Part shown: positions 2,817 to 23,062 of the stretch, piece by piece
How positions within the stretch are numbered: the first letter of the stretch is position 1
Layout of the letters: each line of letters begins with the position of its first letter
Origin: Bacillus sp. 491mf
GTDB taxonomy: Bacteria > Bacillota > Bacilli > Bacillales > Bacillaceae_G
Reading direction: 5' to 3'
Length of the DNA: 63,075 bases
NCBI RefSeq assembly: GCF_900112415.1
Contig: NZ_FOLV01000020.1
Location: forward strand, 1-63,075
The notes under the pieces: generated by a model
The model's database searches: none
What the model saw: the letters and a program-made list of their open reading frames with translations, nothing else
What the model was told of the DNA's origin: nothing
Made by a program: the position numbers and the translations under genes

Positions 2817-2864
2817 CAATTTACCCCCCATGGTATATTTTTGTTTAAAAAAATTAAAAACTCT

Positions 2865-3434
2865 TTATTCTTTCTCCAAAGCACCATACCACTGCGACAT
2901 ACCAGGGACTACATTTTTCACATGCAAGAAACCTTGTTTTTCTAATAACTGACATGCTAGATCACTGCGGTTACCTGTACGGCAAATGACATAAATCAAT
3001 TTTGTTTTATCAAGCTCACTCAATCTTTCTTCTAAATCACCTAACGCAATTAATACAGCTGATGGAATGTGACCAAAAGCAAATTCAGCTGGTTCCCTTA
3101 CATCTAAAACAATGCATTCCTCTTGAGATGCTAATTTATTTTGTAATTCTTCATTTGTCATTGTATGAGAATATTTAACTGCTTCCTTCATTTCCTCTTG
3201 ACGTGTTTTTCGTAAATAATGCTTCAAAACACCGTTCTCATCTTTCATACCGAGATATTGATGTCCTACATTTTTCGCCCAAGCTTGAATATCAGCTACC
3301 GAGCCTTTATCTGTCGCTTCTACTTCAATTACTTGGCCCTCTTCTAACGTATCCATTGCTTTCTTCGTCCGGACAATTGGCATCGGACATGCTAAACCTT
3401 TACAATCCAAAGTAGTATTAACTTGTATACTCAT
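2865..3434 (-). CDS. TusA-rhodanese fusion protein
   Basis: 189 residues. A TusA domain (1-75) has CKGLACPMPIVRTKKAM with C16. A linker (76-90) leads to a rhodanese domain with DVREPAEF at 111-118 and active loop CRTGNRS (C151). It resembles the CstA architecture, though S. aureus CstA has an additional C-terminal DsrE domain that is absent here and is instead a separate gene at 148-627. It is first in the operon, directly downstream of the CstR operator at 3467-3482, with a strong AGGAGG site before the ATG. Confidence 0.9.
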   Translation of the reverse strand: MSIQVNTTLDCKGLACPMPIVRTKKAMDTLEEGQVIEVEATDKGSVADIQAWAKNVGHQYLGMKDENGVLKHYLRKTRQEEMKEAVKYSHTMTNEELQNKLASQEECIVLDVREPAEFAFGHIPSAVLIALGDLEERLSELDKTKLIYVICRTGNRSDLACQLLEKQGFLHVKNVVPGMSQWYGALEKE

Positions 3435-3466
3435 GTTTCATTCCTCCTGAAACCTTCATTTTACAC

Positions 3467-3482
3467 ATACCTATAGGGGTAT
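3467..3482. promoter_or_regulatory. CstR-type operator of the tusA-rhodanese operon
   Basis: ATACCTATAGGGGTAT sits 33 nt upstream of the first ATG of the operon, between it and cstR. Its reverse complement, ATACCCCTATAGGTAT, matches the other three sites of the block. Confidence 0.7.
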
Positions 3483-3522
3483 ATTAAAATCATTTTTAAA
3501 ATCTGCCAAAAAAATTGACAGA

Positions 3523-3786
3523 TTATCTGCTTTTTACAAGTAGTTGTACAGCTTCTTTAATGACATCTTCATTAGATGTATCGCCTTTTTCAAATTGCTC
3601 GCGAAGGCATTTCTCTAAATTCGTTCCGACAATTAATCCAATCGTACGATCCATTGCAGAGCGTGATGCCGTTAGTTGTGTAATCACTTCTTTACAATCT
3701 TTTCCCTCTTCCATCATGCGAAGGACACCACGAATTTGTCCTTCAATTCGCTTCAAACGATTTTTCATATCTTGACCGTATTCCAA
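3523..3786 (-). CDS. cstR: CstR persulfide-sensing repressor (CsoR/DUF156 family)
   Basis: 87 residues, all-helical CsoR fold. It opens at a TTG (3786) with GGAGGTG 8 nt upstream. The copper ligands of CsoR are Cys-His-Cys. Here there are C31 and C60, but the histidine position in the VGTNLEKC segment is Asn56, so copper binding is unlikely. C31/C60 match exactly the reactive cysteine pair of S. aureus CstR, which form di- and trisulfide crosslinks with persulfides and release DNA. Palindromes lie on both sides of the gene (3467-3482, 3861-3876), suggesting autoregulation and control of the operon downstream. Confidence 0.9.
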   Translation of the reverse strand: MEYGQDMKNRLKRIEGQIRGVLRMMEEGKDCKEVITQLTASRSAMDRTIGLIVGTNLEKCLREQFEKGDTSNEDVIKEAVQLLVKSR

Positions 3787-3903: not shown

Positions 3904-3941
3904 GTAATAAAGCCCTGTCAAAACTGACAGGACTTTATTAC
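3904..3941 (-). terminator. intrinsic terminator downstream of cdr
   Basis: AATAAAGTCCTGTCAG and CTGACAGGGCTTTATTA form a long A/T-flanked hairpin immediately after the CoA-disulfide reductase gene on the minus strand. Confidence 0.75.
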
Positions 3942-3964
3942 TTATGATGAACACACTTGAAATA

Positions 3965-5629
3965 TTAATGCGCAACGCGGTTTGGTAAAGCTGTCCCATA
4001 CAACTTAAAACCACCATCAACATTCTTTACTTTATACCCATTTTCCATTAAAATACGTGCCGCTACATACCCTCTCATGCCGAGTTGACACGTAATATAA
4101 ATTTCTTGATCTGTTGGAATCTCGTGTAATCGATCGCGCAATTCATCTAATGGAATATTTACAGATCCTTTAATAATGCCTTGTTTTAATTCGTTCGGTT
4201 CACGAACATCAATTAAATATCCGCCTTTTTCCACGATGTCATCAATTTCATGCCATTGCACGATATCAACAAGTCCCTCAATAATATTGCTTGCTGCATA
4301 CCCCACCATGTTTACAGGGTCTTTAGCAGAAGAATACGGCGGAGCGTATGATAATTCTAAATCAGGTAAGTCCATTACCTTCAATTTTCCTTTCATTGCA
4401 GTTGCAATGACATCGATTCGTTTGTCTACACCAGTACGGCCTACAGCTTGCGCTCCGTAAATTTCTCCTGATTCCTTGTTAAAGATAAGCTTTAGTAAAA
4501 CCGGATACGCATTTGGATAATAGCCAGCATGAGAATTCGCTTGTACGTGAACTACCTCATAGGGCAAACCTAAACGTTGTAATACTTTTTCGTTCACCCC
4601 TGTTGAAGCGACTGTTAATTCAAATACTTTTGCAATGGATGTCCCCATCGTTCCTTTATATATAGAATCTGCATGGCCATGAATAATATCCGCTAATAGA
4701 CGCCCTTGACGATTTGCCGGCGCTGCAAGTGGAATCATTGTTTCTGTTTCCGTGACAAAATCTTTTACTTCAATCGCATCTCCAATCGCATAAATAGATG
4801 GATCAGAAGTTTGCAGCGTTTCATTTACTTTAATCGTATTTCGAACGCCTAGTTCCAATCCTGCCTCTTTTGCCAAGCTGCTTTCAGGCTCTACACCGAT
4901 AGAAAGAATGATCATATCTGTATGAATTTTCGTACCGCTTTTCAGACGAATAACCGTTCCTGCTTCTTCAAAAGCTTCTACCCCATCTTCTAAAATGAGC
5001 TGAACACCATGTTTTGTCATATGCTCATGTACATATGCTGCCATTTCATAATCAATCGGCGGCATGACTTGATTGTTCATTTCTACAAGCGTTACATCAA
5101 GGCCTCTTTCTCTCAAGTTTTCCGCCATTTCAACGCCGATAAAGCCTCCGCCTACAACAGTCGCGCGGCGCGGTTTTTGTTCATCAATATATCCTTTTAT
5201 ACGATCTGTATCCGGTACATTTCGTAATGTAAATAATGCTTTCGCTTCGTCAATTCCTGGAATTGGTGGAACCATCGGCTTAGAACCCGGTGAAAGAATT
5301 AAAACATCATAAGATTCTTCATAAGTTTCATTGGTAACTACACTTTTCACCACAACTGTTTTTTCTTCTTTATTAACTTTGATTACTTCACTTAAAATGC
5401 GAATATCTAAATTAAAGCGCTTAGACATTTTTTCTACTGTTTGCACTAACAACTTTTGTCTTTCTTGAATCACTCCGCCAATATAATATGGCAGCCCGCA
5501 ATTCGCAAACGAAATATACTCTCCGCGCTCAAACATAACAATCTCATCATCTTCACTTAAACGACGTAGACGCGCTGCAACTGATGCTCCGCCAGCAACT
5601 CCGCCCACTACAACAATTTTTCTACTCAT
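3965..5629 (-). CDS. cdr: CoA-disulfide/persulfide reductase with C-terminal rhodanese (CoADR-RHD)
   Basis: 554 residues from the ATG at 5629, preceded by AAGGAGGAGAAAAG. The reading frame extends upstream to 5737 but would swallow the operator at 5649-5664. FAD-binding GGVAGGASVAARLRRL at 9-24, the CoA-disulfide reductase active-site cysteine C44 in SFANCGLPYYIGG, NAD-binding VVGGGFIGVEMAENL, a dimerisation domain, and a C-terminal rhodanese (about 450-554, DVREPNEL, CQLGMRG with C514). It reduces CoA disulfide or CoA persulfide with NAD(P)H. It is transcribed alone, with its own CstR operator. Confidence 0.92.
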   Translation of the reverse strand: MSRKIVVVGGVAGGASVAARLRRLSEDDEIVMFERGEYISFANCGLPYYIGGVIQERQKLLVQTVEKMSKRFNLDIRILSEVIKVNKEEKTVVVKSVVTNETYEESYDVLILSPGSKPMVPPIPGIDEAKALFTLRNVPDTDRIKGYIDEQKPRRATVVGGGFIGVEMAENLRERGLDVTLVEMNNQVMPPIDYEMAAYVHEHMTKHGVQLILEDGVEAFEEAGTVIRLKSGTKIHTDMIILSIGVEPESSLAKEAGLELGVRNTIKVNETLQTSDPSIYAIGDAIEVKDFVTETETMIPLAAPANRQGRLLADIIHGHADSIYKGTMGTSIAKVFELTVASTGVNEKVLQRLGLPYEVVHVQANSHAGYYPNAYPVLLKLIFNKESGEIYGAQAVGRTGVDKRIDVIATAMKGKLKVMDLPDLELSYAPPYSSAKDPVNMVGYAASNIIEGLVDIVQWHEIDDIVEKGGYLIDVREPNELKQGIIKGSVNIPLDELRDRLHEIPTDQEIYITCQLGMRGYVAARILMENGYKVKNVDGGFKLYGTALPNRVAH

Positions 5630-5648
5630 TCTTTTCTCCTCCTTACTT

Positions 5649-5664
5649 ATACCCGTATAGGTAT
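5649..5664. promoter_or_regulatory. CstR-type operator of cdr
   Basis: ATACCCGTATAGGTAT lies 19 nt upstream of the cdr ATG and is identical to the 651-666 site except for its last base. Confidence 0.68.
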
Positions 5665-5765
5665 ATAATAAACATAAAAAAATAATTGTGCAACACTTCA
5701 AACTCCAACTTTCTGTTTGTTCACAAATTCGAAACAAAAAAGAATCTTAATTTTTGTAACATTCT

Positions 5766-5785
5766 GTTCATATTCCGTTCATATT
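5766..5785 (+). promoter_or_regulatory. HssR-type direct repeat before the MMPL gene
   Basis: GTTCATATTCCGTTCATATT is a perfect direct repeat of GTTCATATT with a 2-nt spacer (11-bp period). It matches the pattern known for HssR at hrt promoters and recurs at 8425-8444 and, degenerate, at 10419-10438. A possible -10 (TTTAAAAT) follows about 8 nt downstream. Confidence 0.7.
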
Positions 5786-5830
5786 CTTATTTTAAAATCT
5801 TCCTGAAAATAGAATAAGGAGGTTATATAT

Positions 5831-10922: not shown

Positions 10923-11321
10923 ATGAAAAAGTTATATAATGCAGCATTCACTTATTTAATTATCGGTTTACTATCAGGTGTATTCGCGAGAGAATACTCA
11001 AAAGCACAAGGAATTGAAGGTACGACTTCACTATTCAAGTTGCACACACATGTGCTAGTTCTTGGATTTATATTCTTCTTGCTTGCCTTTGCTCTATCAA
11101 AATCATTTGCGTTCCATGAGGCAAAAAGCTTTAACATGTGGTTCATCGTCTATAATTTAGGACTAGTTTTAACAATTGGTTCAATGGCAGCGCGCGGACT
11201 TCTTCAACTCAATGGAGCTGATTTTAAAGGATTAAGTCATATTGCTGGAACGTCTCATACAATCACTGGTATCGCTCTCGTTTGGTTTATGATTCTATTA
11301 AAAAAATCGTTCAAAGGATAA
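10923..11321 (+). CDS. DUF2871 membrane protein
   Basis: 132 residues from ATG 10923, the second of two adjacent ATGs and better spaced from AGGAGG at 10911. Four membrane helices. Histidines within or beside helices (KLHTHVLVLGF, LSHIAGTSHTITG) recall cytochrome-like four-helix proteins and could bind heme, but this is inference. It resembles the DUF2871 family, whose function is not established. It sits between hsmA (57 nt) and the ccdC-like gene (13 nt). Confidence 0.75.
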   Translation: MKKLYNAAFTYLIIGLLSGVFAREYSKAQGIEGTTSLFKLHTHVLVLGFIFFLLAFALSKSFAFHEAKSFNMWFIVYNLGLVLTIGSMAARGLLQLNGADFKGLSHIAGTSHTITGIALVWFMILLKKSFKG

Positions 11322-11334
11322 AAGGAGGTCAAAC

Positions 11335-11817
11335 ATGAGCTTACCTGTTTTATCAAGTATTGTTGCTCTTTGTATGGCTGTTGGAATGATGTTTCTTCGC
11401 TTAAAATCAGCAAAGAAACCTGTAACACTTAAAAAAATTATCCTCCCGCCCTTTTTCATGAGTACGGGAGCATGCATGTACATCTTACCAGAATTTCGCT
11501 TAACATCATCTGAAATTCTCGAAGCAGTGATCGTTGGTTTATTTTTCTCTATTTTTCTTATTAAAACATCAAAATTTGAAATACGTGGAACAGACATCTA
11601 TTTAATACCTTCTAAAGCATTTATCTTTATTTTAGTCGGTTTACTTGTTGTCCGCCTCGGTATGAAAGAATATTTAAGTCAATCAATTGATTTAGGACAA
11701 TTAAGCGGTATGTTCTTCTTACTTGCTTTTGCAATGATCGTCTCTTGGAGAATTGGCATGTACCGTTCATTTATGAGATTACAAAAGGAAATGAACTTTG
11801 TAAGCAAGAGTGTTTAA
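11335..11817 (+). CDS. CcdC-family membrane protein
   Basis: 160 residues with about five membrane segments. The N-terminus and the LKKIILPPFFMSTGACMYILP block match the CcdC/YneJ family (DUF1453). In B. subtilis ccdC sits with ccdA, a cytochrome c maturation gene, but is itself not essential for it. It is the last gene of the hsmA operon, preceded by AAGGAGG, and is followed by a terminator. Its presence in a putative heme-responsive unit fits a cytochrome or heme link. Confidence 0.78.
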   Translation: MSLPVLSSIVALCMAVGMMFLRLKSAKKPVTLKKIILPPFFMSTGACMYILPEFRLTSSEILEAVIVGLFFSIFLIKTSKFEIRGTDIYLIPSKAFIFILVGLLVVRLGMKEYLSQSIDLGQLSGMFFLLAFAMIVSWRIGMYRSFMRLQKEMNFVSKSV

Positions 11818-11828
11818 TGATAAAAAAA

Positions 11829-11857
11829 AGTCCGATATTGTATCGGGCTTTTTTTAT
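11829..11857 (+). terminator. terminator of the hsmA operon
   Basis: AGTCCGATA-TTG-TATCGGGCT followed by TTTTTTT. Confidence 0.88.
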
Positions 11858-11876
11858 TGAAAACCTTTCTTCTTTT

Positions 11877-11950
11877 AGGTGGGCAAGAGCGTCTGGCCAT
11901 GTATAGGAGCGGGCAAGGCCTTTTTCTGCCACGGGCTATGTTAACAGCAA
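11877..11950 (-). repeat. dispersed repeat, CGGCCA family, inverted copy
   Basis: GTGGGCAAGAGCGTCTGGCC and GGCCTTTTTCTGCCACGGGC are the reverse complement of the repeat at 8283-8340. It marks the left edge of the accessory block. Confidence 0.6.
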
Positions 11951-11965
11951 CAACTTATATCCGTT

Positions 11966-12943
11966 TCAAAAATTAGAAGTCTGTTTTTCTTCTACTAGAT
12001 CATATGCTACTTTCTGCACTTTTGAAGTATTTGATTTTTCAAATGCATTTTGTAATCCTACTAACATCAAATTAGCCGCAACGACTGTTAAAGAGAAAAA
12101 GATAATGGGAACGAGCGCAATCCAAGGGTGAATAGAAAGCATGTGAAATTTATCTCCAATTAACCCAGACCATTCAAATGATAACGTCCGTGGCGGTTCT
12201 TTTGCAGGACTATGGTCAATCACTGTTCCGCCGAAGAACATCTTTAGTACTCCTAAATGCGCTAAAACGAGAAGAACTTTATTGAATTGCTGAACCAATA
12301 AAATGATTAACGTAGAACGAAGCTGTGGGAATATATGTTTACGTAAAATGTGAAATTTTGATCCGCCTAATACAGAGGCAGCTTCCACAAACTCTGTTGT
12401 GAATAGTTTTTTCACTTCATTCGCGACATAAAAAGACGTTGTCGGAAGCGCAAGAATGGTCAGAATAAACATTTCAAAAAGAGCACGTTGATAAAACGGC
12501 TGCTGAAATCCATCGATCGGCATCGACATCACATTTACTAGCAAAAAGTACGCTATAATCGTCAGCGGCATAATCGTAAAGCTATCAAAAAACGATTCAA
12601 TCTTACTGCTCCAGCTTTTCAAAAACGTACCAATCCCGACGCCAAACACAATTGCAAATCCGACCTGCAGCATGGCAATACACGCCGATAAACCAATGGT
12701 AAACTTTGCACCTTGTATAATGACATGAAGTAAATCATATCCATGTATATCAGTACCTAGCAAAAAATGAGTAGACGGTGAGAATGGCGGCGCCCCAATC
12801 AAGTTCCCATTCTCATAAAGGGCTGTCACTTGTCTAATTTGACCATCATTGAAAATCGTATTCGCAACACTAGCAAGTATCAGTATGACTAAAAACAAGA
12901 AACTGAACAGAAATTGTTTTTCCCGTACAAGATGTTTAATCAC
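11966..12943 (-). CDS. Dpp/Opp-type ABC permease, DppC-like
   Basis: 325 residues, starting at a GTG that follows directly on the TAG of the partner gene (no gap). One N-terminal helix, a soluble loop (ALYENGNLIGAPPFSPSTHFLLGTDIHGYDLL, the DppC-type 'GTD..G.D' motif), and five C-terminal helices with the permease EAA-like segment EFVEAASVLGGSKFHILRKHIFP. It should form a heterodimeric channel with the 12944-13810 product. There is no ATPase or binding protein nearby, so the energy module must be elsewhere or shared. Substrate unknown; a peptide is the family default. Confidence 0.85.
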   Translation of the reverse strand: MIKHLVREKQFLFSFLFLVILILASVANTIFNDGQIRQVTALYENGNLIGAPPFSPSTHFLLGTDIHGYDLLHVIIQGAKFTIGLSACIAMLQVGFAIVFGVGIGTFLKSWSSKIESFFDSFTIMPLTIIAYFLLVNVMSMPIDGFQQPFYQRALFEMFILTILALPTTSFYVANEVKKLFTTEFVEAASVLGGSKFHILRKHIFPQLRSTLIILLVQQFNKVLLVLAHLGVLKMFFGGTVIDHSPAKEPPRTLSFEWSGLIGDKFHMLSIHPWIALVPIIFFSLTVVAANLMLVGLQNAFEKSNTSKVQKVAYDLVEEKQTSNF

Positions 12944-13810
12944 CTATACTCCCTCCCCTCTCATAACAGCAGGTACAAATAGATCGTACGCTTTGTAAAG
13001 AATAAAAAATGGAATATAAAGCAACAAAAGCGTTACAACAAACACTTCTGGAAATGGATATTTCAAAACAAAATACACAACACCAGGAACATTAAACAAA
13101 TACTCAACCATCAACAAATTTGAAAACATAAACCATACAATCGTTTTGGAATAATGAAACATCGTAAACAACACATTGCGGAGCACATGATGACGAAATA
13201 TGTGATAGAAATTCAACCCTTTTGCACGAGCATACGCAATATAATCTTTTTGCAGCTCTGCTTCTACTTGCAGCAGAAAAATACGAGTCAACATAATCGT
13301 GGGGGGAATACTTAAACAAACAACAGGCATCAAAATGGACTGATTCTTCCATGTAGTGGCAATATTAAACACCATAATATCCGTTTTTTTAAATAACCAA
13401 AGCACCAAAATTTGAAAACACATAATGATGAACAAATCAGGTACTGATTCTAATATAACCAACACAAACTTCATTCTTTTCAATTTCTCATAGAAAAAGC
13501 GAATAATCAGATAGGTAAAACAAAAAGCACATACAACCGAAATGAAAAGTGCCAGCATAAACAGCCCCAAAGACTGCCAATAAAACTCAAAAACTTGCGG
13601 AAATATCGGCCGTAAACTTTTCCCATACGTCAAATGAGAAAAATCTAATAGCTTTTTACATAAGCCCCCAAGAGCTTTAAAATAATTATTTATATCCATT
13701 TCCATTCCTTTAAACAAACTCGGTAGTGAACTTAAACAAAGAATACCCGCGACAGCTAGAATGAGTTGTGTGATTGCTGTGGTAACTTTTTGGATTGTGA
13801 TTGTTTTCAT
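12944..13810 (-). CDS. Dpp/Opp-type ABC permease, DppB-like
   Basis: 288 residues with about six hydrophobic helices. The cytoplasmic EAA-type loop DYIAYARAKGLNFYHIFRHHVLRN at about 192-215 is characteristic of DppB/OppB permeases. ATG 13810 has GGGGAAGGG upstream. It lies 52 nt downstream of the lasso exporter gene on the same strand and could be read through from it. Whether it belongs to the lasso cluster (for example uptake of the peptide or its signal) or is a core neighbour is unresolved. Confidence 0.85.
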   Translation of the reverse strand: MKTITIQKVTTAITQLILAVAGILCLSSLPSLFKGMEMDINNYFKALGGLCKKLLDFSHLTYGKSLRPIFPQVFEFYWQSLGLFMLALFISVVCAFCFTYLIIRFFYEKLKRMKFVLVILESVPDLFIIMCFQILVLWLFKKTDIMVFNIATTWKNQSILMPVVCLSIPPTIMLTRIFLLQVEAELQKDYIAYARAKGLNFYHIFRHHVLRNVLFTMFHYSKTIVWFMFSNLLMVEYLFNVPGVVYFVLKYPFPEVFVVTLLLLYIPFFILYKAYDLFVPAVMRGEGV

Positions 13811-13862
13811 AACGCCCTTCCCCTTCTCTATTTCTCTTCAAGTTTCTTCTCATCATCCCCAC

Positions 13863-15599
13863 TTATACAAATTGCTTAGCCTTATGATTATCATGTTCTT
13901 GAGAATAAATTTTACAAAACTCGTCACCATTTTGAAGCAATTCTGTATATGTCCCTGATTCTACTACTTTTCCGTCTTTCAATACGATAATGTAGTCTGC
14001 ATGCCTTATGCTTTCTATTCTATGAGCAACAAGAATTGTAGTCATTTTATTTCGAAACTGTGTTAACAACCCCTTGTTCACCAAATATTCTGAATGCGGA
14101 TCTAAAGCAGACGTTGCCTCATCCAATATCAACACCTGAGGTTTCCTTACGAGCGCTCTAGCTAGGGCAATTCTTTGCTTTTGGCCTCCAGATAATACAT
14201 GCCCATTTTCCCCCATATTTGTAAGGTATCCTTCTGGTAAATCTGAGATAAAATCGTGAGCTTGTGCTATTTTACATGCGTGATAAATATCTTGTTTAGA
14301 AGCTAGGAGATCTCCAAAGAGAACATTGTCAAAGACAGAACCTGAGAAAAAATGATTTTCCTGAAGAACCACTCCTATCTGTTCTCGGAATTGCTTTGTA
14401 GAACAACTTTGTAAAGAATGATTTCCTATTAAAATCTCACCTTTATTTGGCAAGTACAATCCAGTCAACAGTTTTATTAAAGTACTTTTTCCTGCACCAC
14501 TTTCTCCTACAATTGCTGTAATTTTACCTTTAGGGAGAATACAACTCACGTCATGTAAAGTACTTACACCATCTGTATAAGAAAACGTCACGTTGCGTAA
14601 TTCTATTTGTCCAGAAAAATCTATATTCCCTTGTTCAGATGGATAATGTTGAGGCTTACTCATATTCATAATCTCTGATATACGTTGTAATCCTCCAAAA
14701 GAAGATTGGATATCGGCATACAATAGAGATAAATGATTAATCGGTGCAAATAAACTCATAATATAAGTAACAAATGCGACCAACGTCCCTAAAGTAAGCT
14801 GTTCACTTTGAACAAAATGGCTCCCAAACCAATATAAAAGCGCAAAAATAATCCAATAACTTAAAGTATTGATACTAACAGATACAGAACGAATATATGT
14901 GTTTCTTAATTCAAGTGGAATTAACCTTTGAAAGGATTTTTTTAATCTTAAAATATCCCAGTTTTGCCTATTAAACAATAAAATCTCTTTGGTAGCATGG
15001 AGACTTTCGCTAATTTTTTCTGAGTTTACCGCAATTTGTTCTTGAATCTCATATGAAATTTTTTTTAACGGCTTTGCAATAAAATAATTCACAATAAATG
15101 GTATAGGTACAATAGCTAAGCTAATCAGGGTAAGCTTCCAGCTTAACGAAAACAGAATAATCAAACTAATTATAACCTGTGTCAACGTTTGGACAAAAGA
15201 AGGTAATATCCATTTCATTAAATGAGAAATCAGCATTGTATCATTTTGAAATACTGATACCAGTTCTCCTGTGCTTCTTTTCTCATAAAAAGGATATGCT
15301 AACCCACGAATATGCTGCGCAAAATCAGATTTAACCTGCATAACCACTTTTTCTGCGACGTAAGTATTCAGTAAATTTTTTCCTATATCTAGTATAGCAG
15401 AAATGAAAGCCAAGCTAATGATAAGTAATAGAATTTTTAGCAATAAGTCAAACTTTTCTTTTCCAAATACATCATCAATAATAATTTTTGTCACATATGG
15501 AAAAAACGATTGGATAGCTGTTCCCAAAAAAATTAAAAAAACTAATAATAAAAAAAACCATGTATATGGTTTGATATAGCGCCAATATTTTCTATTCAT
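13863..15599 (-). CDS. ABC-type peptide exporter of the lasso cluster (D protein)
   Basis: 578 residues. A six-helix ABC_membrane domain (about 1-310) is fused to an ATPase domain with Walker A GESGAGKST (about 368-376), signature LSGGQKQR, Walker B VLILDEATSALD and an H-loop. This half-transporter architecture is that of lasso D proteins (McjD-like), which export the mature peptide and give self-immunity. It directly follows the precursor gene, separated by a hairpin at 15620-15648. There is no N-terminal C39 peptidase domain, so leader removal must be by B2. Confidence 0.9.
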   Translation of the reverse strand: MNRKYWRYIKPYTWFFLLLVFLIFLGTAIQSFFPYVTKIIIDDVFGKEKFDLLLKILLLIISLAFISAILDIGKNLLNTYVAEKVVMQVKSDFAQHIRGLAYPFYEKRSTGELVSVFQNDTMLISHLMKWILPSFVQTLTQVIISLIILFSLSWKLTLISLAIVPIPFIVNYFIAKPLKKISYEIQEQIAVNSEKISESLHATKEILLFNRQNWDILRLKKSFQRLIPLELRNTYIRSVSVSINTLSYWIIFALLYWFGSHFVQSEQLTLGTLVAFVTYIMSLFAPINHLSLLYADIQSSFGGLQRISEIMNMSKPQHYPSEQGNIDFSGQIELRNVTFSYTDGVSTLHDVSCILPKGKITAIVGESGAGKSTLIKLLTGLYLPNKGEILIGNHSLQSCSTKQFREQIGVVLQENHFFSGSVFDNVLFGDLLASKQDIYHACKIAQAHDFISDLPEGYLTNMGENGHVLSGGQKQRIALARALVRKPQVLILDEATSALDPHSEYLVNKGLLTQFRNKMTTILVAHRIESIRHADYIIVLKDGKVVESGTYTELLQNGDEFCKIYSQEHDNHKAKQFV

Positions 15600-15619
15600 T
15601 TCTCCACCCTATTAGTTTA

Positions 15620-15648
15620 AAAAGGCTCTGTTTTAAACAAAGCCTTTT
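15620..15648 (-). terminator. hairpin between lasso precursor and exporter genes
   Basis: On the minus strand AAGGCTTTGTTT-AAAACAGAGCCTT is followed by TTTAAAC. It is a plausible partial terminator that would give more precursor than exporter transcript. Confidence 0.65.
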
Positions 15649-15720
15649 AATATTAATTTTGGCAGGCACCAAACAAATTAGTTATAAATACTTAGATCTT
15701 GCTTATGTTACTTATGGTGT

Positions 15721-15861
15721 TTAATAAGGACGACATCTGTCTGGCTTATAGTAGTCATAACCATCATAACTCTCTGGATACCCACCTATACATTTTGCTT
15801 GAGTTAATTGAACTGCCTTACCATATTCTACAAGAGTTGGAGATGTGTACGTTTTTTTCAT
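15721..15861 (-). CDS. lasso peptide precursor (A), 46 residues
   Basis: Read directly from the sequence. ATG 15861 has AGGGGG 9 nt upstream. The leader MKKTYTSPTLVEYGKAVQLT fits the lasso leader pattern YxxPxLxxxGxxxxxT exactly (Y5, P8, L10, G14, T20). With T20 at position -2 the core starts at A22 and runs 25 residues to Y46. Its opening AKCIGGYPE places Glu at core position 9, giving a nine-residue macrolactam ring. Cysteines at core 3 (ring) and core 22 (tail) could form one disulfide, as in class III lasso peptides. The core is rich in Tyr (six) and ends RCRPY. It lies between the cyclase and exporter genes, the usual A position for Firmicute clusters being variable. Confidence 0.92.
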   Translation of the reverse strand: MKKTYTSPTLVEYGKAVQLTQAKCIGGYPESYDGYDYYKPDRCRPY

Positions 15862-15919
15862 TTTTCATTTCCCCCTAAATTTTATTTTTTGTTTCGAATA
15901 CCTGCCAAGTTAAAAACTA

Positions 15920-17761
15920 CTATAAATAATCCAGTTTACCCTGAATCCAAATCTCTAAGGATAATGCTCTCATAAGACTTGTATAAAACTTAAAGTCTGT
16001 AAATAACCCCATATAATATTTTTCACAAATCTCAATAAGGGATTTTGGATTAACTAATCCCAATTCTGTCAAAGTAGGGCAATGATAGTACGAACTAATT
16101 TGATGCCATTCTTTTTTAAACCCACTTAACATAAATGTTGTATGGGCACCTTTAGTAGTTCGGGTTCGAATTTTCTCCGGAAGAATCCCTTTCATGGATT
16201 CGCGCAAAATATATTTACTATGTTTTGGATTATATTTTAAATGAACGGGTACTGCAGCAAGATATTCCATTATCTTAGAATCAAGAAATGGCGCACGAAC
16301 TTCCATTCCATTCGCATGAGCAACATACTGGTTTGTCCATTCCCTACCTGTTCTATAAATTAAGAAATTGAAATATTCTATCACTTCCTCCTCTGTCCAC
16401 TTACAATCGTTATATGTCGACGAAAATCTTTCCTGCAAAAGACTTGGGTCTATACGCTCACAATTAACCCAAGGAGGGATAAATTCCTCAGATTGATGGA
16501 ACTTCGGCTTGAGTGTGTACTTGTAGAACAGTTCCCAAAGTGGAATAGCACTTTCTCGCCAGAGCTTTAACTCTTTTAATAAAGTTGCGAACCTTTTTTT
16601 CTTAGCAAGGCCCGCTAAATAGTACGGCGATCCATGCAATACTTGATCTCCATACATACCGCTCATATGTATATGAACCCCATCCTCTTTCATAACTTGA
16701 AGAATTTCTGATCCAAACTTATAGTTGAATAAGTGATATGGCTCATCAAAAGATTGTAAATACGAGAAGTCACCTCTGAAATTCCAATGATGGTCTCCAT
16801 CTATCATCCTTGATTCACTAGGATATTTTTGTAAAGCGGATAAAACATAAGGTTCCTCATTTGCCTCTTTTTGTTTTTGAAAAACATAAGTGTAGGCTTT
16901 CATGTTAATTTTCGAATTGAATTCCTGGTCTAATTGAGCTATAGTCGAAAAAATAGACGAAGAATCTAAACCGCCACTCAATGAAATTCCTACAGCACCG
17001 TCACTTCTAATTTGATTATGAACCGTGTTTGCAAACAAATGTCGAAATCCTTCTATGTACTCAGATTCTTTCTTATAGGAAATCGGTAGAGGTTTAAAAT
17101 GATAATATCGGTCGACAGATAACTTCCCTTGAGAAAGCGTGAGATAATGCCCTGCCTTCAATCGATAAATACCCTGGTATGCTGTAGCCTCTTCTACCTT
17201 CGGATTATCTAACAAATACCCTTGTAAATAACGTAAGTTGAGCTTCTTTGTTACATTACTATGCATCAATATTTGTTTAATTTCAGACCCCCATACTAAT
17301 GTAGAACCATCGAAATAATAGAACAGGTGTCGATGCCCTACGCGATCTCGTCCAAGCAATAAGCTTTGCTTCGTCTCATCCCATATAGATAAAGCAAAGT
17401 CCCCATGCAATTCCTGTAAGAAATCTTCGCCCCAACAATCATAGGCATATACTACTAAATAAGCATCAGGTTCATCTCTTTTCACTTCTAATCCTAATTT
17501 TCTTTGCAAATTTTCTTTATAATCTAATCTACCATCGAAGGTAATAAAGTAGTTACGTCCATTGACCTTATAAGAAATCTTTTGATACTTTGCATCTGGT
17601 GTAGTGAATAATAAAGCTTGTCCTAAAGCGACGTTAGATGCACATAGTAGTGTCTCTTTTGAATGTATTCCCCTGTGTTTTGCCACACTCAGCATTTCAT
17701 TAATATAAGGGGTAAAATTATTTGGATTGGAATAGGTAACGATACCTGCAATTGTACTCAA
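15920..17761 (-). CDS. lasso peptide cyclase (C), asparagine-synthetase-like
   Basis: 613 residues. The N-terminal class II glutamine amidotransferase-like domain starts MSTIAGIVTY, so the catalytic Cys2 of true AsnB is replaced by Ser and the glutaminase is presumably inactive. The C-terminal synthetase domain carries the ATP-pyrophosphatase loop SLSGGLDSSS (about 260). In lasso pathways this enzyme adenylates the Asp/Glu side chain and closes the macrolactam with the new N-terminal amine. It lies 48 nt downstream of B2 and 58 nt upstream of the precursor, in operon. Confidence 0.93.
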   Translation of the reverse strand: MSTIAGIVTYSNPNNFTPYINEMLSVAKHRGIHSKETLLCASNVALGQALLFTTPDAKYQKISYKVNGRNYFITFDGRLDYKENLQRKLGLEVKRDEPDAYLVVYAYDCWGEDFLQELHGDFALSIWDETKQSLLLGRDRVGHRHLFYYFDGSTLVWGSEIKQILMHSNVTKKLNLRYLQGYLLDNPKVEEATAYQGIYRLKAGHYLTLSQGKLSVDRYYHFKPLPISYKKESEYIEGFRHLFANTVHNQIRSDGAVGISLSGGLDSSSIFSTIAQLDQEFNSKINMKAYTYVFQKQKEANEEPYVLSALQKYPSESRMIDGDHHWNFRGDFSYLQSFDEPYHLFNYKFGSEILQVMKEDGVHIHMSGMYGDQVLHGSPYYLAGLAKKKRFATLLKELKLWRESAIPLWELFYKYTLKPKFHQSEEFIPPWVNCERIDPSLLQERFSSTYNDCKWTEEEVIEYFNFLIYRTGREWTNQYVAHANGMEVRAPFLDSKIMEYLAAVPVHLKYNPKHSKYILRESMKGILPEKIRTRTTKGAHTTFMLSGFKKEWHQISSYYHCPTLTELGLVNPKSLIEICEKYYMGLFTDFKFYTSLMRALSLEIWIQGKLDYL

Positions 17762-17809
17762 ATAAACCTCCCCTTCTTTGTTTTCTCTAATCTACATGCG
17801 AAAAAATTT

Positions 17810-18202
17810 TCAGATAGAAAACAGCACATTATGTGCTTCTTTTACATCTGGTGTATCATTAATTACCCGCTCTTGAAACTCTATCCAAGCATGTGCAGTA
17901 AAATTTACTTTAGATGCCCCGACGCACATATTGACGTTGTACCCATTTTTTGAAAGTATGTAATAACCGACTAAAGACTGATGTAAACATAGCGCTTTGT
18001 CTTTTAAAAAATGCTTATTGCATGCCGTTTGAATAATCTCACATATCTTATATAACTCTTCTGGCTTAACCGAGTCCTGTGTTACCTTTCGTTTCTTTGT
18101 TTTTATCCATTCACACGTTTCTTTTAATCCTTTCTTATCCAAAAGATAATCAATATAAAATAGAAGTAGAAAGACTTGTACCCTAACCTTTAACATGCTC
18201 AT
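17810..18202 (-). CDS. lasso leader peptidase (B2), transglutaminase-like
   Basis: 130 residues, the size of a stand-alone B2 protein. The cysteine-protease triad is visible as C72 (KALCLHQSL), H104 (FTAHAWIEF) and D116 (VINDTPDV). It cuts the leader after the residue following Thr(-2). The gene overlaps the end of B1 by 20 nt, indicating translational coupling. Confidence 0.92.
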   Translation of the reverse strand: MSMLKVRVQVFLLLFYIDYLLDKKGLKETCEWIKTKKRKVTQDSVKPEELYKICEIIQTACNKHFLKDKALCLHQSLVGYYILSKNGYNVNMCVGASKVNFTAHAWIEFQERVINDTPDVKEAHNVLFSI

Positions 18203-18476
18203 TTACCGTTACAATTTGATGATGAACTAATTTTTCTATAAAACGATATAAATCTTGCCAAACCTGATCTTCCTCTACCTCATATTCATTGATTACATGA
18301 TTCACAATCACTTGTAGTTCCTCAAAACGTTTTAGTAGCTCCCAAAACATAGCCCCCATCTCATCTAACCCCAAATATATCCCTGTTTCATAATTTAATA
18401 TGACAAAATTATTTTCACCTTTGGAAGTAAATATTTCTTTCTTAAATGTAATACGCGAGTCTTTTTGTATATCCAT
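18183..18476 (-). CDS. lasso RRE protein (B1), PqqD-like
   Basis: 97 residues. PqqD fold with ENNFVILNYETGIYLGLDEMGAMFWELL, typical of the RiPP recognition element that binds the leader and delivers it to B2. Split B1/B2 genes are the rule in Gram-positive lasso clusters. It is the first gene of the lasso operon, preceded by CAGGAGGTATTGT, with a candidate regulatory motif at 18499-18507. Confidence 0.92.
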   Translation of the reverse strand: MDIQKDSRITFKKEIFTSKGENNFVILNYETGIYLGLDEMGAMFWELLKRFEELQVIVNHVINEYEVEEDQVWQDLYRFIEKLVHHQIVTVNEHVKG

Positions 18477-18852
18477 ACAATACCTCCTGACATCTAACTA
18501 TTCAGTGTTTTTACTTTATGAACTCTTTACTGATAGTACTTTACAAATCAAAATTCTAAATATTTTCCGTGAAACAAATATATCATCCGACACAAAAATT
18601 GAGTATTGGGAAAATTCACTCAATAAAAGAACTACTTTGTTATACATTTTATGAAAATTGTTCCCGAAAACAAAAGAATTACAACTTTCGACCACATAAT
18701 ACACCAATATTCCCTACATATATTTTTCCCAACATATAAAATGTGTTAGAGTGATTCGATATACTGAATGATTTTGATATAATTGTCTCCTATAAAGATT
18801 GAATCTAAAAATATACATTATATGGAAAGTAAATAACAATAAGGAGGGGAAT
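18477..18852. promoter_or_regulatory. divergent promoter region between the lasso operon and the mauE-like gene
   Basis: A 376-nt AT-rich gap with no convincing gene. TATTCAGTG at 18499-18507 lies just upstream of the B1 ribosome binding site. The same core, inverted (ACTGAAT), is at 18763-18769 between a weak -35 (TTCGAT, 18755) and a good -10 (TATAAT, 18778-18783) of the plus-strand promoter, the layout of an activator-dependent promoter. A related palindrome is in the promoter of the RRNPP regulator (21642-21654). Confidence 0.45.
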
Positions 18853-19383
18853 ATGGAGATTATATTTACTACACTTTGTTTCAGTCTAGGACTGCTATTC
18901 TCAATTAGCATATTGGATAAAGTTCTGAAATTTAAGGAACATCTCTTGATTGTAAAGAACTACAAACTCATACCCGAATATACTGTAGCACCTTTCACAA
19001 TTATCACTATATTTTTGGAATTATATTTATCTTGCTGTTTATTTCTTCTTAACGTCAGACTTCTTACTGTCATAATAGGAACTACTCTTTTGCTTGTATA
19101 CACTGTAGGGATCTCTATCAATCTATTACGTAAACATACAAACATTTCATGTGGGTGTGGGGGTATCCTTAACAGTAAGCAACTCAGCGTTACCTTAGTC
19201 TGGCGAAATGTAGCTCTTATTTCTTCTTTATGGGTTACTTTTTTTGCTAATTATACAATCCAAATTTCGTCTCTATCTTTTGTTACACTTGTCTTCTCAT
19301 TCTTTGTAGCTACTAATATCATCTTGCTTCTTTCTATATTTAAAGACAATATAGAGACATTCAAAACATACTATAATAGATAA
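18853..19383 (+). CDS. MauE/DoxX-family membrane protein
   Basis: 176 residues from ATG 18853 (AAGGAGGGG upstream). Four to five membrane helices, with the MauE-type pattern LEL in a helix and a C-G-C-G-G motif in the loop after helix 3 (NISCGCGGILNSKQ). MauE-type proteins are VKOR/DsbB-like partners of periplasmic thioredoxin-fold proteins. It is 13 nt from a TlpA-like redoxin gene and divergent from the lasso operon, so a role in forming or isomerising the predicted C3-C22 disulfide of the lasso peptide is plausible but inferred. Confidence 0.75.
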   Translation: MEIIFTTLCFSLGLLFSISILDKVLKFKEHLLIVKNYKLIPEYTVAPFTIITIFLELYLSCCLFLLNVRLLTVIIGTTLLLVYTVGISINLLRKHTNISCGCGGILNSKQLSVTLVWRNVALISSLWVTFFANYTIQISSLSFVTLVFSFFVATNIILLLSIFKDNIETFKTYYNR

Positions 19384-19396
19384 GGAGGATGGCCTA

Positions 19397-19939
19397 GTGC
19401 GCCAGGACCTAATATACCTATTATTATTTATTGCTTTTTTATTAATCACCCTTCAAATGTTTGTGTTATTTTGGTTGTCTAAAATGCTAAAATTCACTAT
19501 ACAGCGCTCTCCAGGTATCAAAGAAGTAAGAATTGGAGATAAAGCTCCGCATTTTTCAGCTCTTGATATACAGGGACATGAAGTTCAATTAAAAAGTCTT
19601 CTCCGTGAAAAAAACGTATGTTTACTGTTTATAGATACAAATTGTTCAATTTGTAAAGGGATACTTCCACATATGCAACACCTTACGTCTCGTTACGATA
19701 TCCAGTTCGTAATCATTAACGAAAATACTGTCATGGATGATACCGGAATACAGAAGTTGTTATCCCCATCTCTAATATACATAAAAAGCCCAGAAATTTT
19801 CCGAAAATACGTAATGCGAACCGTTCCCCAAGCCATATTAGTAAATCAAACTGGTTTTGTTCAAAATCGAAATTTAATACCCGATATTGAAGTATTACAA
19901 GACCTCTTAGACAATTATCTAGAAGAACAAACAGCGTGA
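19397..19939 (+). CDS. membrane-anchored TlpA/MauD-like thioredoxin-fold protein
   Basis: 180 residues, GTG start with AAGGAGG upstream. One N-terminal membrane anchor (about 6-29), then a redoxin domain starting at IGDKAPHFSALDIQG, with the redox motif CSIC at 83-86 and a cis-proline region TVPQAILV. It is extracytoplasmic by topology. Paired with the MauE-like protein it forms a MauE/MauD-type thiol-redox couple. Followed by a terminator at 19996-20023. Confidence 0.82.
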   Translation: MRQDLIYLLLFIAFLLITLQMFVLFWLSKMLKFTIQRSPGIKEVRIGDKAPHFSALDIQGHEVQLKSLLREKNVCLLFIDTNCSICKGILPHMQHLTSRYDIQFVIINENTVMDDTGIQKLLSPSLIYIKSPEIFRKYVMRTVPQAILVNQTGFVQNRNLIPDIEVLQDLLDNYLEEQTA

Positions 19940-19995
19940 TTCATCAATTTCATATTTGAATATCATAATGGTAAATAGATTGCAGCATATAAAAT

Positions 19996-20024
19996 AACAC
20001 GCAGGGAAAACTCCTGCGTGTTTC
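19996..20024 (+). terminator. terminator of the mauE/tlpA-like operon
   Basis: AACACGCAGG-GAAAACT-CCTGCGTGTT followed by TCGATTT. Confidence 0.75.
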
Positions 20025-20187
20025 GATTTCAGCCTAGATTTAAATATAAATTAAGTAATTAACTGAACTTAGGTTTATTTCGTAAAAAAAGCGTTGATAC
20101 CAACACAAAAGTTGCTTCTTGTTAGTAGAAGCATAAATGATTCTTACACTATAACTTGTAAGAACCATTGTACTTTCATAGAAATAA

Positions 20188-20340
20188 TTAATTTCCAACA
20201 ACCCCAGGTGGATCTTGAGGCTTATTATCTAGCAGAACTCCGTTGCTTTGATTAGGATATATATTATAGTGGATAGTAACATCTACCCACAAAACTAAAG
20301 AAATGGTACATAATATAAAATATTTCATTAACTTTCTCAT
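20188..20340 (-). CDS. secreted pro-peptide, candidate RRNPP signalling peptide
   Basis: 50 residues, read directly. The ATG (20340-20338) overlaps the stop of the regulator (ATGA), so the two are translationally coupled. The product begins MRKLMKYFILCTISLVLWV, a short basic plus hydrophobic Sec-type export signal. It then has a polar region and ends KPQDPPGVVGN. This is the organisation of Phr, PapR and NprX precursors, in which a C-terminal 5-10-residue piece is released outside, re-imported by an Opp permease and bound by the TPR domain of the adjacent regulator. The end KPQDPPGVVG is the best candidate for the mature pheromone. Confidence 0.8.
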   Translation of the reverse strand: MRKLMKYFILCTISLVLWVDVTIHYNIYPNQSNGVLLDNKPQDPPGVVGN

Positions 20341-21596
20341 TTATATTCCCCCTTATTACTTAACAAGCTTTTTAATATATTATTACTTATACGAAGATAC
20401 TGATTAGATAATAAAAGATCACTTTCTTCGTAATAAAAAGAAATCTTCTCTGCATATTCTAAAGCCTCTTTTAGTTGATTTTCCCTTTCCATAATAGGTA
20501 GACCATGACGAATTAAATAGTGAATTAAAAGTTCTTCCTCTCCTAATGCTTGTAAATACAACACATTTAACCTCACATATTCAGGACTTTCTTTGTTTTC
20601 CAAAATATAAAGTTCCTCTTTTAACATCTCAACTACTTTTTTATACTCTTGCATTTCTACAAGAATTTGTGCAATATTTCCTAGCGTTAAGTAGTAGTCT
20701 TCTGTATATTTTTGCTTTAACTGCAATGATTTATAATAATAATCCAATGCTTCAGCTGGTTTTTTCTGAGAATAATACAAAAAACCTAAATTATGCAAAG
20801 TTCTTGCCGTTTCTGAAACATTTTGTATCAATTCAGCATCATCTAGCATCTCCAATAACACTGTTTCAGCTGTCTTATATTCACCTGTCCTTATAAGATG
20901 AATTGCAATAATTGTTTTAACATGTAAGATACGATAAATATTACTCGTTTCCTGAAACACCTTTAAAGCTTTATAACCGAAATATATAGCTAAAGTGGAG
21001 TGATTCAATTTACTATGTACTAAAGCTTGGTAATAATAATATTCTTTTATTTTATCGCTATAAATTTCAACGGATTCACTAATATCATTTAATACTTTTA
21101 ATGAAGTCGTTAACTCCTTCCTTTTAAAATAATATATAGCATATAAAAAATCTGATAAATACCTTTCGTACTGGGAAAATTTTCTTTTATACCTATTAAT
21201 GCCGCCAAACCTTTTTTCAACCTCATCCAATTGATCTAGAAACAAATAGTATCGTAATTCACATAATTCATATAAAAAAATAAGCTTTGTGCAACTTATA
21301 TACTCTTTGTGATTGTTCAAAAAGTTGTATAAAGAGTTTGCCTTTCCTTTGTTTAGCCGTTCTATTGCATCATAAAAAGCATCTATTTTCTTCTGAAAAT
21401 CTTGGATTTTTCTCTCTTCCTCTTCAACAGATACTCCTAATCGCTCACATAATAATTTTAAAGTATCTAAATTTGCTTCTTTTGAGTTATTCTCTATTTT
21501 GCTTAGATGTGTAACTGAACATATTCCCCTGCATAATTGTTCTTGTGTCTTGCACTGTTTTTTTCGATGATAGTAAATAATTTTTCCAATACCCAT
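20337..21596 (-). CDS. RRNPP-family HTH-TPR transcriptional regulator (NprR/PlcR-like)
   Basis: 419 residues. XRE-type HTH at about 5-60 (KTQEQLCRGICSVTHLSKIENNSKEANLDTLKLLCERLG), then roughly eight TPR-like helix pairs (for example ARTLHNLGFLYYSQKKPAEALDYYYKSLQLK at about 263-293). Length and layout match NprR-type receptors; NprR is about 420 residues. These are peptide-pheromone receptors that bind DNA or another protein depending on the peptide. The partner pro-peptide overlaps its stop codon. GGGGGGGAG precedes the ATG. A 13-bp palindrome (21642-21654) in its own promoter may be its operator. Confidence 0.88.
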   Translation of the reverse strand: MGIGKIIYYHRKKQCKTQEQLCRGICSVTHLSKIENNSKEANLDTLKLLCERLGVSVEEEERKIQDFQKKIDAFYDAIERLNKGKANSLYNFLNNHKEYISCTKLIFLYELCELRYYLFLDQLDEVEKRFGGINRYKRKFSQYERYLSDFLYAIYYFKRKELTTSLKVLNDISESVEIYSDKIKEYYYYQALVHSKLNHSTLAIYFGYKALKVFQETSNIYRILHVKTIIAIHLIRTGEYKTAETVLLEMLDDAELIQNVSETARTLHNLGFLYYSQKKPAEALDYYYKSLQLKQKYTEDYYLTLGNIAQILVEMQEYKKVVEMLKEELYILENKESPEYVRLNVLYLQALGEEELLIHYLIRHGLPIMERENQLKEALEYAEKISFYYEESDLLLSNQYLRISNNILKSLLSNKGEYK

Positions 21597-21641
21597 ATAC
21601 TCCCCCCCCTTCCAATAATTCCTATGTAAAATTTTATCAAC

Positions 21642-21654
21642 TATTCACTGAATA
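21642..21654. promoter_or_regulatory. palindrome in the RRNPP regulator promoter
   Basis: TATTCACTGAATA is a perfect 13-bp palindrome with a central C, 46 nt upstream of the regulator start. TATTCAGTG at 18499 and ACTGAAT at 18763 near the lasso promoters resemble its half-sites. Confidence 0.4.
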
Positions 21655-21799
21655 TTCAATAAAATATAAGATTCCATAAAAAAAGGAAGATACCATTAAT
21701 CGTTTGTCACGTTAATCGTACCTCCTCTTCTTTTTCATTAATTACTAGCGTGGCTTTACTTACACTCTTCTAATATCTATAAAGCTGTTATGCTAGATT

Positions 21800-23062
21800 T
21801 TAAGAATTATACAGTTCCATAACTTTCTCCACTACAAGCTCAGCAGTCCCCTCTTCTGGAGGCATCCACAAATTTGTAACCGGTCCATACACCACAGGAT
21901 TGAGTTCTACTTCATATCCTCCGTATGTATATTCTTCTTTTGTAGGTAGATAACCAACATAACCGTTCGTATAGCCGCCAAAAAAGACAAGTTCGTTATT
22001 CAATCTTTCTTTAATTTCTAGGGCTGTTTCTGAAAATGGTTCCATTGGTATTCCAGAATATGAACCTTCATTGATTTGAAATAACTGAATTTCTAAATCA
22101 ATCGCTAACTGTCTCATATTTCGTTTGTATTTATCTAACATGATCGTAAGCCATTGGTCAGTATTTACGCCCCAATGTGTTTCCGCTAATTGTGCCATCT
22201 GCTTTATTCCATCGGGTTCGGGAATATCTTTTAATTTCATTGGTAATGTGCTTGAAATAGTTTTCAACTTTGAAATTGAGTTGTACGCAATTGTTGGCAA
22301 CATCGTTAAGACATTTCCACTTACTACGTAAGCCATTTGTTTTAATGATTCCATTGAACCACGATATTTGGCATTCACATTTCCCGCGGCCCCCTGAACA
22401 ATTATTACAGGACAGTTAAGTGTTCTTTCAAGGATCTCCCTTGCCAAACCTGGGTAATCGGCTGATAATATATCACTATCTCCCTTTAAAACATTTGGAT
22501 GAGCAGTACAAAATACAATGATTCCGGTTAAATCCTTTGTTTGATCGTTTCTAATAGCTAGAACTCCGATTCGTTTATCCACAACTCCATTTACATCAGC
22601 ACCCATTTTTGCTTTGCCATCAGGTGTTTTCTCTCTTCGATTTATCCCTATTTCCCCTAACGTTACGTTCCACCCAACTTCAGATGCTTGCATATTGTCA
22701 TTTGCGATAATAGCCGCTCTTATTACATTAGTGATGAGAATTGTTTTATAAGGCATTATTAACTCATCATCGCCAACTGTTTCGGGACCAGAATGCGTAT
22801 GAGTATACACAACCATTATGTTTTCTAATGGAACATTTAGCTCATTTGCGATTTGTTCCCGAATGATTACAGTATCTTCTATTAACATTCCTATGTTGTC
22901 AATGCTTATAAATACGGTCTTTGTTTGATTGCTTTCAAACACATATGCTGTTGCATAAATGTGTTCATCAATATTACGAATTCCTGTTTCTCTATGGTAT
23001 CCGATGAAGTCGATACCTAGAGGGGGTGTGATATCTACTTTATATATTCCTACTTTACTCAT
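21800..23062 (-). CDS. neutral ceramidase-like protein
   Basis: 420 residues. The start VGIYKVDITPPLGIDFIGY and the metal-ligand region VVYTHTHSGPETVG (about 104-117) match the N-terminal domain of neutral/alkaline ceramidases, as does the AHPNVL segment (about 193). It is shorter than secreted ceramidases (about 650 residues), lacks their C-terminal domain and has no signal peptide, so it is a cytoplasmic member of unknown amidase substrate. GGAGAG precedes the ATG. It is not obviously in operon with neighbours. Confidence 0.8.
   Translation of the reverse strand: MSKVGIYKVDITPPLGIDFIGYHRETGIRNIDEHIYATAYVFESNQTKTVFISIDNIGMLIEDTVIIREQIANELNVPLENIMVVYTHTHSGPETVGDDELIMPYKTILITNVIRAAIIANDNMQASEVGWNVTLGEIGINRREKTPDGKAKMGADVNGVVDKRIGVLAIRNDQTKDLTGIIVFCTAHPNVLKGDSDILSADYPGLAREILERTLNCPVIIVQGAAGNVNAKYRGSMESLKQMAYVVSGNVLTMLPTIAYNSISKLKTISSTLPMKLKDIPEPDGIKQMAQLAETHWGVNTDQWLTIMLDKYKRNMRQLAIDLEIQLFQINEGSYSGIPMEPFSETALEIKERLNNELVFFGGYTNGYVGYLPTKEEYTYGGYEVELNPVVYGPVTNLWMPPEEGTAELVVEKVMELYNS

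Follow-up and report, generated by a model that had tools for sequence, protein, structure and literature searches.

What does the lasso peptide cluster of Bacillus sp. 491mf make, and do the redox genes beside it have a part in shaping that product? The window analyzed here, i.e., the whole 63,075-nucleotide stretch at positions 1 to 63,075 of contig NZ_FOLV01000020.1, carries five lasso genes on the minus strand between positions 13,863 and 18,476 and, adjoining them on the opposite strand, a pair of genes for a MauE-like membrane protein and a thioredoxin. A 2026 review (PMC13352647) treats the way in which lasso peptides acquire their disulfides as unknown, and a 2022 review describes the biosynthesis of class III members as very little known (PMC9266682). 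The cluster and its redox pair offer a way to test how lasso disulfides form. Our analysis suggests that the product is probably a class III-like lasso peptide that combines a nine-residue macrolactam with a Cys3-Cys22 ring-tail disulfide, and that the redox pair would form or secure this disulfide extracellularly.

The lasso genes and the predicted product

The initial annotation had proposed a complete lasso cluster, and open reading frames and family matches bore out all of its structural claims, including the positions and strand of the five genes. It had overlooked, however, the adjoining MauE-thioredoxin pair and the class implied by the cysteines, as well as an Opp-like permease pair and a hairpin between the precursor and exporter genes. 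B1 (18183..18476, minus strand) is a discrete ribosomally synthesized and post-translationally modified peptide (RiPP) recognition element (RRE) of the PqqD family (Pfam PqqD, 7e-14, exceeding the Pfam cut-off) and putatively binds the YxxP leader; its closest solved relative is TbiB1 (5v1u, E 1e-8). The B1 gene overlaps that of B2 (17810..18202, minus strand), a transglutaminase-like leader peptidase (NCBIfam lasso_biosyn_B2, NF033537; 56.6 bits, cut-off 33) with the anticipated Cys72/His104/Asp116 triad, which is invariant in all seven aligned B2 proteins. A short gap separates B2 from C (15920..17761, minus strand), an asparagine-synthetase-like macrolactam synthetase (Asn_synthase, 3e-37) that begins at a TTG codon behind the ribosome-binding site AGGGGAGG. 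It has Ser at residue 2, in agreement with the proposed lack of the glutaminase Cys2, and its SGGLDSSS motif region is kept across the six aligned cyclases. After another short gap and the precursor gene A, 121 nt lead to D (13863..15599, minus strand), a permease-ATPase fusion of the ABC exporter type (ABC_membrane, 1e-44; ABC_tran, 2e-35) that is 47.5% identical to the exporter of the related cluster L026. The A-D gap holds a terminator-like hairpin (15608..15665, minus strand) with a 13-pair inner stem and a T run (-15.3 kcal/mol for the 58-nt piece), which was found by folding and was absent from the output of a simple scan. This hairpin could keep exporter mRNA at a lower level than precursor mRNA.

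The precursor (15721..15861, minus strand) was correctly located as a 46-codon frame behind AGGGGG and consists of the leader MKKTYTSPTLVEYGKAVQLTQ and the core AKCIGGYPESYDGYDYYKPDRCRPY. It matches the precursor of L026 with an E value of 2e-13, and a chance origin of the frame is thereby excluded. The leader conforms to YxxPxLxxxGxxxxxT (YTSPTLVEYGKAVQLT) with Thr at position -2, and the core has 25 residues, six tyrosines, an RCRPY end, and Glu at position 9, all as described. For this core, we calculated monoisotopic neutral masses of 2960.290 Da with the ring only and 2958.274 Da with ring and disulfide, the latter in accordance with the 2958.3 Da given earlier. Glu9 and Thr at -2, whose loss in close relatives with intact clusters had been named as a refutation, are both kept in the three nearest clusters, i.e., L026 (AKCIGGWAE), L027 (GGFISQYAE), and L030 (GGFVSQYAE); in the more distant clusters L020, L021, L028, L117, and L124, position -2 is occupied by Ile or Val, and the acidic residue is Glu8.

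A discrete RRE combined with a Cys-His-Asp B2 protein, a cyclase devoid of Cys2, and a precursor with a YxxP leader, Thr at -2, and an acidic residue within core positions 7 to 9 are testable features by which the cluster appears to belong to the lasso peptides. Its cysteine pattern fits class III, in which ring and tail each hold one cysteine. Indeed, Cys3 falls inside the predicted ring and Cys22 close to the C terminus, which makes a ring-tail disulfide the natural reading. Class I is defined by two disulfides and Cys at core position 1, and the core has Ala1 and only two cysteines; class IV has both cysteines in the tail, and here C3 is within the ring.

MauE genes accompany ring cysteines

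The first gene of the redox pair (18853..19383, plus strand) encodes a MauE/DoxX-like membrane protein with an SCGCGG motif (Pfam MauE, 4e-18). We placed its start at the ATG at 18853, which follows the ribosome-binding site AAGGAGGGG; the mechanically called reading frame begins at 18799. The CGC motif is invariant in the five aligned MauE proteins. The second gene (19397..19939, plus strand) encodes a TlpA/ResA/MauD-like thioredoxin with a CSIC motif (Pfam AhpC-TSA, 7e-9), which scores too low to reach the cut-offs of the MauD and ResA models, is 36.8% identical to its L026 counterpart, and has an N-terminal hydrophobic stretch judged by eye to be a membrane anchor. The pair is divergent from B1 in the window; in L026, MauE adjoins the lasso genes on the same strand, in the order MauE-Trx-B1-B2-C-A-D.

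The distribution of MauE was assessed in 67 loci. The NCBIfam B2 model matched 62 places in 53 of 398 Bacilli genomes. Sixty of these places were fetched; together with L020 and L021, they make up the 62 loci from the B2 scan, to which we added the window and four loci found by cyclase similarity (L026, L027, L028, and L030), so that these last four are not a random sample. MauE was sought within approximately 9 kb on each side of B2, or less at contig ends, and was found at seven loci (the window, L020, L021, L026, L028, L117, and L124). A precursor was recognized in 63 loci, those of L107, L111, L113, L114, L117, and L124 being read from lists by hand; L082, L120, L128, and L129, none of them with MauE, were dropped before cysteine classes were assigned by eye from the precursor lists. 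MauE is present at all seven loci with a ring cysteine, at none of the three with cysteines in the tail only (L027, L030, and L091), and at none of the 53 without a core cysteine. The association between MauE and the ring cysteine is thus exact in this sample, and it includes L117 and L124, which the MauE model picked up from outside its training set. It lends the predicted ring-tail disulfide indirect support. In a cyclase tree of 60 loci, which comprises six of the seven ring-cysteine clusters (L021 was omitted because of its split cyclase), these clusters fall into two groups, window/L026 (100/99) and L020/L028/L117/L124 (97/98). L027 and L030, without ring cysteine and MauE, form the sister of window/L026 (100/99). 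The window and L026 versus these cysteine-different sisters provide a natural comparison set within the Bacilli, in which MauE and the ring cysteine change together, and a MauE gene next to a lasso cluster may be used in genome mining as a flag that predicts a ring cysteine.

The genes, their motifs, the AKCIGG[YW]xE ring pattern common to the window and L026, and the joint presence of MauE and ring cysteine at the loci surveyed are direct sequence observations, from which we infer how cleavage, cyclization, threading, disulfide formation, export, and activity might proceed and what the redox pair might do. B1 would bind the YxxP leader, and its Asp75 would be positioned to touch the Tyr, as suggested by PMC13381572 and by the covariation described below. 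B2 would then cut after Gln21, leaving Thr20 at -2, and C would fold the peptide and close the ring between the Ala1 nitrogen and the Glu9 side chain. Once D has exported the predicted product, the membrane-bound MauE-thioredoxin pair probably either bridges Cys3 and Cys22 by extracellular oxidation or aids product release. An antibacterial or signaling role toward related Gram-positive bacteria is a guess.

Predicted leader recognition by B1

According to PMC13381572, the residue at LppB D70/PbaB1 Q79 touches the first residue of the YxxP/WxxP motif. In alignments read by eye, Asp75 of the window B1 corresponds to this position. We compared it with the leader type in 61 aligned B1 proteins, many of them near copies, from the 63 loci with a recognized precursor (L089 and L127 were dropped), with the leader letters assigned by hand from the precursor lists. 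Of the 31 Tyr leaders, 29 are paired with Asp (the others with one Glu and one gap), and of the 28 Trp leaders, 25 are paired with Gln (the others with Asp twice and Glu once); the two Phe leaders are accompanied by Gln and His. The pairing is near one-to-one in these alignments and extends the mutant data of PMC13381572. By the rule for two RRE selectivity positions taken from the same paper, paeninodin-like systems are characterized by a WxxP leader and Gly/Gln; the window has YxxP and Asp38/Asp75. Since its Tyr leader and Asp75 follow the Tyr-Asp pairing, the precursor is supported as the probable substrate of its own B1. The Tyr-leader/Asp pairing also occurs in eight loci within the paeninodin-like clade.

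Alternative explanations

A number of observations weigh against extracellular disulfide formation by the redox pair in a class III-like lasso peptide. Five of the ring-cysteine members themselves served to build the MauE model, and, because the ring-cysteine clusters form two groups on the cyclase tree, their association with MauE counts as roughly two independent events in evolution rather than seven (alternatively, as a single gain and a single joint loss). The window and L026 are the only loci in which a canonical CxxC thioredoxin aligned beside MauE. In L020, L021, and L028, the small protein encoded next to MauE has no CxxC at the place where the window protein has it, and that of L028 has no thioredoxin match in Pfam; hits of our thioredoxin model in these three loci prove nothing because the model was built with them. 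They carry a DsbA-like gene instead of a clear thioredoxin, and VKOR was found in L020 and L028. In L117, the thioredoxin-model match is weak (4e-5), and the L124 candidate was seen by eye only. Pairing of C3 with C22 is not strictly conserved either, since the L026 core has four cysteines. Scores against the lasso-specific NCBIfam models fell below the cut-offs for B1 (49.6; cut-off, 80), the cyclase (323.8; cut-off, 525), and the precursor (24.2; cut-off, 33). Finally, according to PMC9266682, deletion of sviF in Streptomyces leaves disulfide formation intact and confines sviceucin to mycelia, MS-271 is still produced without mslE or mslF, and the clusters of class I arcumycin, class III 9401-LP1, and the class IV members lack the redox pair. 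The pair may thus serve export or be dispensable.

The findings from PMC9266682 are what one would expect if the lasso cluster were real but the MauE-thioredoxin pair were an export or release helper, or an unrelated neighbor, and the disulfide arose spontaneously, and the location of the window pair on the strand opposite the lasso genes agrees with that. Nevertheless, the pair lies directly before B1 on the same strand in L026, and MauE is found in seven of seven ring-cysteine clusters versus none of the 56 others with a recognized precursor, so we rate this explanation as unlikely, though far from negligible. The product could also be an unthreaded bicycle of macrolactam and disulfide, or have its cysteines joined between molecules: threading cannot be told from sequence, the tail is rich in Tyr and Pro, and a ring-tail disulfide might hold an unthreaded form. 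All the enzymes are of the lasso type, however, and the ring pattern is common to L026, which leaves this with a very small probability. It is just as improbable that the cluster is silent or decaying. The cyclase of its relative L021 is split by several stops, whereas the frames in the window are open, ribosome-binding sites precede B1, C, A, D, and MauE, and the catalytic residues are intact. We favor a disulfide-locked lasso peptide whose ring-tail bond would be formed or secured by the redox pair.

Related clusters

The L026 cluster belongs to the Bacillales genome G999, which was found among 397 genomes sampled from one order. Its cyclase, B2 protein, and precursor are 45%, 53%, and 55% identical to those of the window, and the precursor reads MKKTYTAPTLIKIGNAIELTQ/AKCIGGWAECLDCDLFYHTKCGH. 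The precursor alignment used C-terminally trimmed rows for L027, L030, and L028, whose full cores were taken from the precursor lists. Both precursors have the ring pattern AKCIGG[YW]xE, Thr at -2, and Glu9; the four cysteines of the L026 core are at positions 3, 10, 13, and 21, the last near the C terminus. The cores of the second G999 cluster (L027) and of L030 (genome G1128) follow GGF[IV]SQYAECPESYCEFY..G, with cysteines in the tail only, and neither MauE nor thioredoxin was detected at these two loci. A third group (L020, L021, and L028) combines Ile or Val at -2 with Glu8, a ring cysteine at position 2, three tail cysteines, and MauE; L117 and L124 share with them Ile or Val at -2, Glu8, MauE, and a ring cysteine alongside several tail cysteines. 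Ile/Val at -2 is on record from Bradymonadales, Acidobacteriaceae, and Sphingomonadales (PMC10368454).

Several of these clusters have features of their own. L026 is flanked by a 300-nt direct repeat (5158-5457 and 14323-14622; 96% identical), and L027 is also repeat-flanked on both sides, which may reflect mobility. The L028 match position is that on the Priestia megaterium plasmid NZ_CP085449.1, and such clusters can accordingly be plasmid-borne. In L021, the cyclase frame (1777-3600) is broken by several stops, through either decay or sequencing error, and its neighbors and precursor look open.

Cyclase matches at E 1e-40 occurred in 13 of the 398 genomes of the first class sample, and only two of these loci had B1 and B2 beside the cyclase when the window proteins served as queries; one order sample of 392 genomes gave a single cyclase match, at 29% identity (L022). 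Further genome searches with the cyclase turned up no loci beyond those found before. Cyclase patterns returned nothing from the genome-contig and viral-contig collections, and the former contained no close kin of the window, the best match of a flanking gene being 42%. With the precursor as tblastn query, nothing reached E 0.1 among 72,556 plasmid and 50,697 phage records, and no closely similar DNA was found in the plasmid records.

Neighboring genes and possible regulation

Beyond the thioredoxin gene lies an NprR-like HTH-TPR regulator of the RRNPP type (20337..21596, minus strand; HTH_3, 7e-9, plus TPR), which matches NprR (4gpk) over residues 65-407 with an E value of 1e-10. Its stop codon overlaps, in ATGA, the start of a 50-amino-acid open reading frame (20188..20340, minus strand), a candidate RRNPP propeptide that has an N-terminal hydrophobic stretch, judged by eye only to be a signal sequence, and no family match. 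RRNPP quorum-sensing pairs are organized as two adjacent genes (PMC10075063), and this arrangement suggests that the receptor and the small frame may be such a pair beside the lasso cluster; RRNPP and lasso peptides were not found mentioned together in the open-license full-text literature. The receptor is a possible candidate regulator of the cluster. An operator shared between the regulator and lasso promoters was unsupported, with three common 9-mers versus 2.24 expected from shuffling and no 10-mers. The region 11001-22000 contained no PlcR box, and sigma-70-like sites were not above chance (42 found versus 45.6 expected). The wider scenario, in which the MauE-thioredoxin pair would be a dedicated extracellular oxidase that locks ring to tail and is gained or lost with the ring cysteine, and in which the NprR-like receptor and the 50-residue propeptide would place the window cluster under density control, strikes us as rather improbable.

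On the other side of the cluster, 52 nt downstream of the exporter gene, an Opp-like permease pair begins (11966..13810, minus strand; BPD_transp_1), made up of permB (12944-13810) and permC (11966-12943). Opp-like pairs also adjoin the L026, L027, and L030 clusters; one L030 pair spans 3922-5826. The idea of a lasso-specific part was nonetheless weakened by the presence of this family in all 36 genomes of the family to which G999 belongs, with 246 matches. The window permC is 51 to 54% identical to proteins of L062, L065, L068, and the upstream L030 pair but only 37 to 38% identical to those of the pairs that directly follow the exporter genes of L026, L027, and L030. Four of the eight fetched permease pairs adjoin an HTH regulator (L061, L062, L065 [by eye], and L068). 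Because such pairs are common and half of those fetched have this company, the lasso cluster may sit inside a permease-regulator module, and the permease pair is a possible passenger or accessory of the cluster. As a whole, the window is of Bacillus chromosomal type; its remainder includes thiamine and kdp genes (recognized by eye), a tRNA cluster, two cyclic di-AMP (c-di-AMP) and two thiamine pyrophosphate (TPP) riboswitches, and a coenzyme A (CoA)-disulfide reductase that matches PDB 3icr, a B. anthracis protein, over residues 34-589 at approximately 80 to 85% identity by eye. The many substitutions in this match suggest that the window comes from another, divergent Bacillus.

Comparison with known lasso systems

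The core had been noted as unfamiliar among characterized lasso peptides. Strings from the cores of the window and its relatives were absent from the open-license full-text literature, to which this search was confined, so that neither lasso databases nor supplementary tables, preprints, or subscription papers fell within it. Lasso clusters of the Bacillales and of the cereus group have already been counted (PMC5100339 and PMC10672896). As cereus-group clusters have been counted in print, that of the window could already stand in such a list.

The class III peptides BI-32169 and 9401-LP1 are actinobacterial, and BI-32169 starts with Gly and also has a nine-residue ring. They are the members of that class named by the 2022 review (PMC9266682), and the window product would resemble them in its macrolactam ring with a single predicted ring-tail disulfide. 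According to that review, no extra genes belong to the 9401-LP1 cluster, in contrast to the adjacent MauE-thioredoxin pair of the window, and the cluster for BI-32169 was unidentified as of its publication. With the Streptomyces class I systems (sviceucin and MS-271), the window shares split B1/B2 proteins and a counterpart of the DoxX/thioredoxin pair sviE/sviF, genes that are present in five such clusters (PMC9266682). The peptides differ, however, in that class I has two disulfides and an N-terminal Cys (PMC9266682), whereas the window core has Ala1 and two cysteines.

Paeninodin-like clusters of the Bacillota are similar to that of the window in their split B1/B2 proteins, exporter, and nine-residue ring. 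Such clusters also encode a kinase that acts on the C-terminal Ser. Their leaders are mostly of the WxxP type with Gly/Gln in the RRE (the Trp-leader count of 25 of 28 given above), unlike the YxxP and Asp/Asp of the window, and within our sample they have no core cysteine except in L091, whereas the window core has two. The L026 cluster differs from that of the window in its four cysteines and in having the redox pair on the strand of B1, but it contains the same genes, including those for MauE and thioredoxin, and the same AKCIGG[YW]xE ring.

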